From: Anaeromyces robustus
Lineage: Eukaryota; Neocallimastigomycota; Neocallimastigomycetes; Neocallimastigales; Neocallimastigaceae
DNA length: 27,500 nucleotides
NCBI GenBank assembly: GCA_002104895.1
Contig: MCFG01000248.1
Span: 1-27,500, forward strand
Reading direction: 5' to 3'
This document shows positions 15,140-26,020 of this stretch, one piece after another; within the stretch, counting starts at the first letter, position 1, and every line of letters begins with the position of its first letter. The notes under the pieces were generated by a model. That model searched no databases and was not told the DNA's origin. It saw only the letters and a program-made list of their open reading frames with translations. Position numbers and translations under genes: made by a program.

Positions 15140-15820
15140 AATATTATTAGAATTTTAATAGAAAATAAAATAAGAATTAATGAAAGAGATTATAATAATA
15201 GAAATGCCTTAATCTATGCTACAGAAAAGGGAAATCTAGAAATAGTTCAATATCTAGTAGAAAAAAAAATAAATATTAATGTTTGTGCATTTAGTAATAG
15301 TTGGAATGCGTTATTTTATGCTATACATAGAAACCGTAAAGATATAGCTATTTATTTAATTGATAACGATATAGATATGTATGGTAATAATTTTAAAGAT
15401 AATAATAGTAAAGATATCTTAACATTCGCTTATGAACATGAAAATATTGATCTTATTAAATATATGGTTGAAAAAGGAGTTGATCTTGATGGTAAACACC
15501 ACTTAGGAGAAACAATATTAATGACCGCTTGTAATAATAACGATATTGAGATGGTTAATATTTTTATTGAAAATGGTGCAGATATTAATGCTGTAAATAA
15601 TAAAAAAGAAAGTGCTTTAATTTATGCTATCAAAAAAAAAAAATTTAAAATTAGTTCAATTATTAATTGAAAAGGGAATAAATATTCATTTAAAAACTGG
15701 TGAAGGATATACCCCTTTACTCTATGCTTCAAAGACAAGTAGTTTAGATATCGTTAAATATTTAATAAGCAAAGGTAGTGATATTAAAGATAAAAATGAT
15801 GAAGGATATAACGCATTAAT
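15140..15820 (+). repeat. 681-bp tandem duplication, first unit
   Basis: Paired with 15821-16501 at a constant offset of 681 bp, checked at three points (AATATTATTA, TTGGAATGCG and the A12 run). 681 is 227 codons, about seven ankyrin repeats, as expected of unequal exchange between homologous repeats. Confidence 0.85.
15632..15643 (+). other. A12 run at the frame break, unit 1
   Basis: Eleven A would keep the ankyrin frame (AIKKKNLKLV); twelve shift it +1 and lead to TGA at 15668. A pure A12 run is a known type of site for polymerase slippage. Confidence 0.8.
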
Positions 15821-16501
15821 AATATTATTAAATTTTTAATAGAAAATAAAATAAAAATTAACGAAAGAGATGATAATAATAAAAATGCCTTTATCTATGC
15901 TACAGAAAAGGGAAATCTAGAAGTACTTCAATATCTAGTAGAAAAAAAAATAAATATTAATGTTTGTGCATTGAGTAATGGTTGGAATGCGTTATTTTAT
16001 GCTATACATAAAAATTATAAAGATATAATTATTTATTTAATTGATAACGATATAGATATGTATGGTAATAATCTAAAAAATTATAATAGTAAAAATATCT
16101 TAACATTCGCTTATGAACATGAAAATATTGATCTTATTAAATATATGATTAAGAAAGGAGTTAATATTGATGGTAAACACTACTTAGGAGATACAATATT
16201 AATGACCGCTTGTGAAAATAACGATATTGAGATGGTTAATTTTCTTATTGAAAATGGTGCAGATATTAATGCTGTAAATCGTAAAAATGAAAGTGCTTTA
16301 ATTTATGCTATCAAAAAAAAAAAATTTAAAAATAGTTCAATTATTAGTTGAAAAGGGAATAAATATTCATTTAAAAACCGGTGAAGGATATACCCCTTTA
16401 CTCTATGCTTCAAAAACAAGTAGTTTAGATATCGTTAAATATTTAATAAGCAAAGGTAGCGATATTAAAGATAAAAATAATAAAGGATTTAACGCATTAA
16501 T
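15821..16501 (+). repeat. 681-bp tandem duplication, second unit
   Basis: Second copy; differs from the first by scattered, largely conservative changes (for example ININVCAFSNS against ININVCALSNG). It shares the A12 frameshift, so that lesion is older than the duplication unless conversion spread it. Confidence 0.85.
16313..16324 (+). other. A12 run at the frame break, unit 2
   Basis: Same position in the ankyrin repeat, same run length and same net +1 as 15632-15643; the 0 frame ends at the TGA 16349-16351. The downstream frame includes an ATG at 16305 that overlaps the upstream frame by 47 nt. Confidence 0.8.
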
Positions 16502-16955
16502 AGAAGCTTGCTGTAATGATAAATTTGAAATAGTAAAATATTTAATAGAATGTGGCATAGATATTAACGAACAAGCAAATATAGGACAAAACGCTTTAAT
16601 CTTAGGTATTGGACTTGCAAATATAGAAATAATTAAGTATTTAGTAAAAAAAGGAATTGATATTAATCATACTACTAGAGATGGTTATAATGCTGCATTT
16701 TCATGTGTAAGGAGAGGAAGACTAGAAGAACTTAAATTTTTAGTGGAAGAAGGAATAGATATTAACTGTAAAAGTTCTTATAATGAGAGAACAATAGATT
16801 ATGCTAAATCTAATAAACAAAATAAAATCTATAATTATCTAATGGAAAAAATAAAAGAAAAAGAAAAAGAAAAAGAAATGGAATTGAAAAAAAAATCAGA
16901 AGAATCAAATAAATTTTCATATAGTTCTTTAATTAAGAAGTTTTTATTAGGATAA

Positions 16956-23191: not shown

Positions 23192-24027
23192 GATTGTTTT
23201 AAAAAAATAAATATATATATATATATTTATATATATTTAGATTTAGTTTTAATTGCAAATTCTAAATTCCTAATTTAAATTAATTTAAAATTAAATAAAT
23301 AAATACTAGTTATAATCTTTTGATTGGTCTAATACATATTATATATATTAATTTTACTTGTTATTAACAGTCAGTTAATTGGATTTTAATAATGAATTAA
23401 GTCAAACTTTATTATTTATATATATTTTAGGATAAAAAGTTCACAAATTTTAATTATATCTAAATTATTTATTATAAATTACATCATACTTTTACTTTTA
23501 TATTCAAAAAATGTGGCTTATACATTAAATTTGATACAATAAATTTTAATAAATTTTTAATACATTTAAAACCTATTTCACATTCACATTCACCTATTCT
23601 AACACTTGTTATACAATATTCATTTTTATTTTCTACTTTCTAATTTATAATAAATTAAATACTAGTTATAATTTTTACATTAGTCTAATATCTAATATAT
23701 ATAATAATTATACTTGTTAATTGTAGTGAATATAATAATATTTAAATTGATAAATAATAAAAATAATATTATAACCTGTTGTATTTTATACTTTATGTAT
23801 AGGTTAATTTTTAATATTATTAAACGTATTATAATTAATGAAAAAATATATATTAATATTTTAATATTTTAATAAAATTTAAATAAAATTATATTTTATT
23901 TCAATTTTCTATAATTAATATGCTATTATACTATTATTTCGGTTATTTAAATGTTATTCTTATTAGAATTGTCAGCTAATTCAAATTCAACAAATTTATG
24001 ATGATAAATTTATAATAATTAACTGAC
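23192..24027. other. AT-rich upstream region of the ankyrin gene
   Basis: No gene. An (AT)n block sits 20-40 bp upstream of the ATG, but no specific promoter can be named. Two ~75-bp degenerate direct repeats (about 23297-23369 and 23653-23727; both contain AATACTAGTTATAAT and ACTTGTTA) lie here. GTCAGTTAATT at 23370-23380 is the exact complement of AATTAACTGAC at 24017-24027, and a one-mismatch copy, GTCAGCTAATT at 23971-23981, makes a local hairpin that also contains AAATTTAT-GATG-ATAAATTT. Confidence 0.5.
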
Positions 24028-25086
24028 TTTTTTTCTTAGACTAAAGGAAGAGAATACAGTTCCCTTTTTTTTATTAATTATAAAAGTTACTAATATACAT
24101 TAATATATAATAAAATTAATAAAAAATAAAAAAAAATACTATCTAAAAAATCTATAACAAATAAATATAATAATAAAAAAAATATAATAGATTATAATAA
24201 ATATAAATTTTTGAAATAATTACAAATATAAGTGTTAGGGTAGTACTATTCAGATTTCATTCCACTCTTAAAGTGATAAAATAATAAAAAAAATAAAAAA
24301 TAAAAAGTAATGTAGCAATCTAAATTAAAGATAATGTCGATGTCCACTAAACTTCTCCCTTAGATATTATTATGTCTTATTGATTTGACTTCTACGCTTT
24401 TGGTAATAATGGCTAAATATAAAATAAAAAGTAAAAAATAAAAAATAAAAATAAAAAAATAAAAAAAATAGAAATAAATAAAAAATAAAAATAAAAATAA
24501 AAATAAAAATAAAAATAAAAATAAAAATAAAAATAAAAATAAAAATAAAAATAAAAATAAAAATAAAAATAAAAATAAAAATAAAAATAAAAATAAAAAT
24601 AAAAATTTTTTTCTTAGACTAAAGGAAGAGAATACACTTCCCATGTTTTTTTTTTTTTTTTTTTTTTTTTTTTTTTTTTTCATTTTATTCATTATAAAGG
24701 GTTATTAATACACATTTAGATTTAGTATACATAAAATAAAAAAATAATTATAAATTTCAGTGTTAGGCTAGGACTTATTCGGATTTCATTCCACTCTTAA
24801 AATAGTTAAATAATAAAAAATTCTTTTTTCTTAGACTAAAGGAAAAGAATACACTTCCCATGTTTTTTTATTTTATTTATTATAAAGGGTATTAATATAC
24901 ATTTTGATTTAGTACAAAAAAATAAAAAATTAAAATAAAAAAAAAAAAAAATACTATCTAAAAATCTATAATATATATATTTAATATATATATAATAAAT
25001 TATAATAAATATCTTGAAATAATTATTTTAGTGTTACGGTAACTTATTCGGATTTTATTCCACCCTTAAAATGGTAAAATAATAAT
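24028..25086 (-). mobile_element. Patchwork of three LINE 3'-end fragments and an associated module
   Basis: A module with CTTAGACTAAAGGAAGAGAAT occurs three times (about 24035, 24613, 24830), usually followed by ACTTCCCATGTTTT and TATAAAGGGT. Each is followed by a LINE 3' block in minus orientation (CAGATTTCATTCCACTCTT near 24250 and the TTATTCGG versions near 24777 and 25045). The first fragment also keeps part of the coding end: the complement of about 24365-24415 reads KSVEVKSIRHNN. No frame is intact. The last fragment stops at about 25085, where ankyrin copy 3 begins. Confidence 0.65.
24479..24606 (+). repeat. (AAAAAT)n hexanucleotide array, about 21 units
   Basis: Almost pure AAAAAT. 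It sits between a LINE 3' fragment and the second module, so it may be an expanded element tail. A similar, less pure array is at 17815-17935. Confidence 0.85.
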
Positions 25087-26020
25087 ATACATAGAAACCG
25101 TAAAGATATAGCTATTTATTTAATTGATAATGATATAGATATGTATGGTAATAATCTTAAAAATAGTAATAGTAAAAATATCTTAACATTCGCTTATGAA
25201 CATAAAAATATTGATCTTATTAAATATATGACTAAGAAAGGAGTTAATCTTGATGGTAAAAACTACTTAGGAGAAACAATATTAATGAAAGCTTGTGAAA
25301 ATAACGATATTGAGATGGTTAATTTTCTTATTGAAAATGGTGCAGATATTAATGTTGTAAATAATGAAAAAGAAAGTGCCTTAATATATGCCATAAAAAA
25401 AAAATTTAAAAATAGTTCAATTATTAGTTGAAAATGGAATAAATATTCATTCAAAAACTCGTAAGGGATATACCCCTTTACTCTATGCTTCAAAGACGAG
25501 TACTTTAGATATCGTTAAATATTTAATAAGTAAAGGTAGCGATATTAAAGATAAAAATGATCTGGGATATAATGCATTAATAGAAGCTTGCTGTAATGAT
25601 AAATTTGATATAGTAAAATATTTAATAGAATGTGGTATAGACATTAATGAACAAGGAAACGAAGGACAAAACGCTTTAATACTAAGTATTGGACTTGGAA
25701 TTATAGAAATAATTAAGTATTTAGTAAAAAATGGAATTGATATTAATCATACTACTATAGATGGATATAATGATGTGTTTTCATGTGTAAAGAAAGGAAG
25801 GATAGATGAACTTGAATTTTTAATAGAAGAAGGAATAGATATTAAGTGTAAAAATTCTTATAATAAGAGACCAGCAGATTATGCTAAATATCATATTAAA
25901 AACCAAAAAATGTATAATTATCTAAAGGAAAAAGAAAAAGAAATAGAATTGAAAAAAAAATCAGAAGAATCAAATAAATTTTCGTATAGTTCTTTAATTA
26001 AGAAGATTATGTTAGGATAA
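25087..26020 (+). pseudogene. Ankyrin-repeat gene copy 3, 5'-truncated and frameshifted
   Basis: Ankyrin-coding sequence starts abruptly inside a repeat (IHRNRKDIAIYLIDND) right after a LINE 3' fragment; no N-terminus or poly-Asn. About three repeats are read to KKKFKNSSIIS and TGA at 25429-25431. An A10 run (25395-25404; nine A would keep frame) shifts the ankyrin frame by +1. The shifted frame is open for about 200 codons to TAA at 26018-26020, with five repeats and the tail EIELKKKSEESNKFSYSS. Differences from the other copies are mostly conservative (I/V, D/E, K/N). It cannot make a continuous protein without recoding and has no obvious start. Confidence 0.85.
25395..25404 (+). other. A10 run at the frame break, copy 3
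   Basis: Same repeat position as the A12 runs of the plus-arm units, net +1, same TGA after ATT AGT. Confidence 0.8.

Follow-up and report, generated by a model that had tools for sequence, protein, structure and literature searches.

A frame break common to four clustered ankyrin gene copies of Anaeromyces robustus: very probably decay at a homopolymer hotspot rather than programmed recoding

Does a frame break that recurs at the same repeat boundary in several gene copies mark a site of programmed recoding, or can it arise through decay? The question is raised by a stretch of the Anaeromyces robustus genome (70,169,043 bases in 769 contigs), namely bases 1-27,500 of contig C166, hereafter the window, in which four copies of an ankyrin-repeat gene are found. 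The initial annotation of this DNA described a net +1 break of frame at the same ankyrin junction in all four and offered three readings of it: coinciding lesions, homogenised copies or a recoded site. The breaks very likely reflect a homopolymer hotspot at which duplicated copies became pseudogenes, with some consensus error of the assembly perhaps added, and not programmed recoding. The broken copies are presumably non-functional and their lesions presumably genuine in the organism, rather than in part errors of the consensus. Homopolymer runs are a familiar place for breaks in the pseudogenes and gene fragments of multigene families.

The genome search with unit 2 of the window as the query revealed, among the best candidates scored, seven close copies with at least 89% identity, four of them in the window and the others at C166:95.8 kb, C200:22.2 kb and C255:70 kb; the match that followed among these candidates reached 95 bits and 67% over 360 nucleotides (nt). 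A protein search of the genome led to the same seven copies. The C166:95 kb copy (C166:94.5-96.8 kb) is open over 743 codons without interruption and matches the ankyrin profile PF12796 with an E-value of 2.9e-72, which identifies its product as an ankyrin-repeat protein; it serves below as the open paralogue. One scan each of viral_contigs and genome_contigs gave no homologues outside this genome, with no other gut fungus for comparison. The four copies in the window are laid out as follows:

14696 to 15820, plus strand: unit 1, an ankyrin fragment whose match to the open paralogue starts at codon 205 and which is devoid of the N- and C-terminal parts.
15821 to 16955, plus strand: unit 2, an ankyrin fragment (codons 354-743) starting with the second copy of a 681-nt duplication.
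21061 to 23191, minus strand: the minus-strand copy (minus gene), with N-terminus, poly-Asn tract, ankyrins and Lys/Glu-rich tail, and one frame break.
25086 to 26020, plus strand: copy 3, an ankyrin fragment (codons 415-743) with the 5' end truncated against repeat sequence.

The minus gene, with 510 codons from ATG to TGA, is the sole full-length copy among the four, while the N-terminal part is missing from units 1, 2 and copy 3. Within the AAT tract, preceded by AT-rich sequence, lies the start of unit 1, which runs into unit 2 at an out-of-phase joint, a TAA following just beyond 15820/15821. The two units represent an intragenic tandem duplication with a period of 681 nt (93.5% identity over 682 nt, gapless). 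Thus, relative to the open paralogue, the copies carry the disabling lesions and truncations by which pseudogenes are recognised and even perfect recoding would yield no whole protein from units 1, 2 or copy 3, whose gene start is missing. The poly-Asn tract (AAT repeat, 22613-22765 in the minus gene) varies widely in length among the four full-length copies of the family, the longest Asn runs being 51, 69, 24 and 5 residues over the minus gene, L002, L003 and L006.

At the break site itself, the following features are found:

15632 to 15643, plus strand: A12 run, the longest A-run in unit 1; compared with the in-frame paralogues, the site has 1 nt more.
16313 to 16324, plus strand: A12 run, the longest A-run in unit 2 and equal in size to that of unit 1; here too the site has 1 nt more than its in-frame counterparts.
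25395 to 25404, plus strand: A10 run, the longest A-run in copy 3; compared with the in-frame paralogues, the site lacks 2 nt.
21659 to 21673, minus strand: break site of the minus gene, which lacks 5 nt near 21669/21670 and has its TGA at 21659-21661.

The runs are therefore those given in the initial annotation, including the A8 run of the minus gene (21681-21688, not its longest A-run). From TATGC to TTTA, the minus gene has the same spacing as the three in-frame copies, 15 nt, against 16 nt in units 1 and 2 and 13 nt in copy 3. Consequently, the earlier statement that three copies contain one A too many was right for units 1 and 2 and wrong for copy 3, which is two nucleotides short. The 5 nt said to be lacking from the minus gene about 12 nt past the A8 run are indeed absent; the TATGC-TTTA stretch of that gene is itself of normal length. 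Relative to the in-frame copies, the lesions thus measure +1 (units 1 and 2), -2 (copy 3) and -5 (minus gene), in support of the notion of coinciding lesions. Since units 1 and 2 are one tandem duplication, the site holds at most three lesions, and the two units probably share a single one by descent or conversion. Hence, the common break proposed for four units is present in each, although it counts for no more than three events, and the three outside copies (C166:95 kb, C200 and C255; 3/7) are in frame at the site. The homogenisation of copies, likewise, is supported for units 1 and 2, which share their lesion through duplication or conversion. In trees, units 1 and 2 group together downstream of the site (support 88), while upstream unit 2 groups with the C166:95 kb copy (support 85) and copy 3 with the minus gene (support 82), a conflict which, given these modest supports, hints at conversion or mosaic copies.

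Over the seven copies, seven small frame lesions were counted, per copy, and six of them lie in A-runs of at least 9 nt, of which there are 18 in total. Three of the A-run lesions are away from the shared site: the C200 copy is broken at two other A-runs, and the C255 copy at one, about 30 nt upstream of the site. These observations are consistent with a course of events in which the ankyrin copies were duplicated locally, partly truncated, and then lost frame through separate small indels. Lys/Asn codons give the site a long A-run, unsurpassed within units 1, 2 and copy 3, and this would make it a hotspot. A single lesion would have come to be shared by units 1 and 2 through tandem duplication or conversion, copy 3 would have undergone a separate change of run length, and the minus gene a 5-nt deletion close by; all of these would sum to one phase (a 1-in-4 chance for three events), which hits a TGA at once. 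In the open paralogue elsewhere, the truncated copies, the separate indels mostly in A-runs and a nonsynonymous to synonymous substitution ratio (dN/dS) near 1 for some pairs, the copies resemble pseudogenes and fragments of multigene families; they differ from usual pseudogenes in that several lesions gather near one run with a common phase, and in dN/dS values below 1 for other pairs.

The stop codon calls for separate consideration. All four upstream frames were confirmed to close at a homologous TGA (15668-15670, 16349-16351 and 25429-25431 on the plus strand, 21659-21661 on the minus strand), in the context ATT AGT TGA in three copies and ATT AAT TGA in unit 1. In the ankyrin repeat, Leu-Val/Ile-Glu is encoded by TTA-GTT-GAA or TTA-ATT-GAA, which turn into ATT-AGT/AAT-TGA when read one base early; in zero frame, these codon triplets occur 99 times in 25 open frames, each 500 codons or longer, taken from loci retrieved as ankyrin matches, a few of which overlap. 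The common TGA is no second coincidence, because the phase alone exposes frequent ankyrin codons.

The same letters had suggested programmed +1 ribosomal frameshifting at ATT-AGT-T, similar to that of Ty3 and EST3, which would join both frames in each copy. Like those sites, three copies have AGT-T (before GAA) and the net shift is +1; moreover, the flanks are open on both sides and downstream dN/dS is below 1 in many pairs. However, the break is not kept among the paralogues, three of the seven reading straight through the site, unit 1 has AAT-T instead of AGT-T, and the resemblance to Ty3 comes down to ordinary ankyrin codons. In addition, three of the four copies lack a start, unit 1 terminates at its joint, and a shift at the site would leave about ten ankyrin-helix residues out of frame in units 1, 2 and copy 3, as read from the sequence. 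The yeast +1 sites presented in PMC12719033 are GCG-AGU-U (Ty3) and CUU-AGU-U (EST3), whereas the preceding codon here is ATT in all four copies; this is not decisive alone, since the same source counts 11 codons able to support some +1 shifting. With neither a shift-prone GCG/CUU codon nor a frame break kept among homologues within this genome, a recoded site is not supported, and frameshifting in these copies can be regarded as extremely unlikely. Confined to the minus gene, a +1 shift at ATT-AGT-T, or else a 510-residue truncated ankyrin protein with a new end beside the long-form open paralogue, has hardly a better chance.

Transcriptional slippage on A-runs is a known system, and the initial annotation had pointed to it as well; slippage of this kind, or on the ribosome, would restore the frame by changing the run. 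The A12, A12 and A10 runs at the break in three copies are long, and a change of -1 or +2 in the transcript run opens the frame again through unit 2 and copy 3, as well as through unit 1 up to the joint. In the minus gene, however, the A8 run changed by -2 to +2 never allows reading past 29 codons of the tested stretch; unit 1 still halts after 88-89 codons, at the joint, gene starts are missing in three of the four copies, and the in-frame copies need no slippage. No change of run length reopened every copy, which renders slippage highly improbable. An intron, short and spanning the break, is scarcely credible: loose GT..AG pairs of fitting length lie near each copy, as expected by chance, but all four copies are devoid of a GTRWGT donor over the 169-189 nt inspected ahead of the TGA, and the stretch encodes ankyrin codons retained by the in-frame copies.

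Whether decay at the homopolymer hotspot agrees with the substitution pattern was evaluated by pairwise maximum-likelihood dN/dS, separately upstream and downstream of the site, with likelihood ratios (LR) against 1. Among the outside copies themselves, dN/dS was 0.41-0.46 upstream (LR 6.4-7.3) and 0.47-0.58 downstream (LR 1.8-3.3). Relative to them, the minus gene showed 0.87-0.94 upstream and 0.52-1.47 downstream, and unit 1 showed 0.72-1.10 upstream. Values near 1, as expected for decaying copies, are seen upstream for the minus gene and unit 1, while most other values, downstream ones included, are below 1. The proteins of the plus and minus copies had been judged about three-quarters identical, and nonsynonymous codon counts gave about 77-82%; the pieces on both sides of the break that were aligned with the open paralogue are free of further stops, as had been stated. 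Unit 2 (15821-16351) and the minus gene upstream of 21659 form an odd pair, in which, out of 158 codons, 36 differ nonsynonymously and none synonymously.

A number of results weigh against decay. Under an even spread of lesions, three of six independent ones would fall within 30 nt with a modelled p of about 0.01, or 0.003 with one phase required; with 83% of lesions placed in A-runs, the values rise to 0.33-0.42 and 0.10-0.12, so that the clustering can lie within what a hotspot yields in this model, whose run positions and weights were set by hand. The deletion of the minus gene falls outside the A-run of the site. Relative to the outside copies, dN/dS was low for unit 2 (0.31-0.66 upstream, 0.32-0.54 downstream) and copy 3 (0.41-0.51 and 0.33-0.61), and downstream values were low also between unit 2 and copy 3 (0.27, LR 14.3), unit 2 and the minus gene (0.46), copy 3 and the minus gene (0.48) and, over 50 codons, unit 1 and unit 2 (0.19) or copy 3 (0.16). 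A random change creates a stop in about 7-9% of cases when whole copies are considered, and in 5-9% for single pieces; of the 154 differences between the minus gene and the open copy, half were assigned to the minus branch, which under full neutrality predicts about six stops, yet no further stop is found in the open pieces, those of the minus branch included. Low dN/dS and missing stops suit decay only if most of the divergence predates the breaks. Open flanks and low dN/dS do not by themselves make a case for recoding, yet decay stays short of proven; taken together, the absence of gained stops and the low dN/dS mean that the break is young relative to the duplication, or not real, wholly or in part.

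The latter possibility, that the A-run lesions of units 1, 2 and copy 3 are, entirely or to some extent, long-read consensus errors and the copies may be in frame at the site, seems doubtful, though far from negligible. Besides the pieces that stay open despite their divergence, it draws on near-identical stretches of the assembly. Pairs were picked for equal scores in dockerin and ankyrin protein searches; fungal dockerins (PF02013) are abundant in the genome (at least 150 matches over the cut-off, 150 of 683 candidates having been scored), and the family was matched in none of 14 control genomes, as suits an anaerobic gut fungus. The L047/L048 pair was omitted as a diverged copy (97% identity, 61 substitutions, 15 indel events). 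The four remaining pairs (99.5-99.9% identity) showed 8, 0, 1 and 0 substitutions as against 10, 4, 5 and 7 indel events, respectively, and the length of A/T runs of at least 8 nt differed between the two copies in 8 of 43 cases; four of the 21 runs in the L045/L046 pair did so with zero substitutions. Three of these pairs touch a contig end, and L045/L046 does not. Such indel-rich differences are like long-read homopolymer errors, which PMC12007338 describes as chiefly short indels at homopolymers. Taken as errors, these differences would put the share of wrong long runs at about a tenth per copy. Nevertheless, only 10 of the 26 indel events fall in homopolymers of at least 4 nt, the differences between duplicate stretches may be real polymorphism, and open ankyrin frames reach 3321 amino acids; the equal size of the runs in units 1 and 2 would take two like errors, and neither the 5-nt deletion of the minus gene nor the missing gene starts and truncations are accounted for. 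Consensus error is therefore the main rival of decay for units 1, 2 and copy 3, but not for the 5-nt deletion.

As for other elements, ankyrin copy and 3' flank together form a large inverted duplication (15821-17996 versus 22183-19890, 82.6% identity over 2.3 kb), which flanks a broken element at 18010-19600. The latter gives a weak minus-strand zf-RVT match (E-value 0.015, below the cut-off), has dozens of similar places in the genome, the long ones 78-89% identical, and is perhaps a degraded non-LTR (long terminal repeat) retrotransposon. An AT-rich 593-bp element with TG...CA ends is present at 516-1108, 6905-7497 (minus strand) and 8352-8944; it contains no A or T run of 6 or more. With 40 out of 601 candidates scored, it was identical at 40 or more places in the genome, and one additional place was near-identical. 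Judging by its ends it would be LTR-like, and it looks to have spread very recently. The Rfam scan of the window produced no match at the gathering score, and Pfam on six frames of the window that lie outside the ankyrin copies no match at 0.001.

Returning to decay at the homopolymer hotspot, this case means that a single such hotspot, combined with duplication, can give rise to a break common to several paralogues, and that a stop found in all of them adds no evidence where the repeat's own codons contain that stop. In this AT-rich assembly, frame breaks at A-runs need comparison with paralogues and reads before recoding is claimed. The window is best explained as holding part of a fast-evolving ankyrin gene family, whose duplicated and in some cases truncated copies are clustered here.

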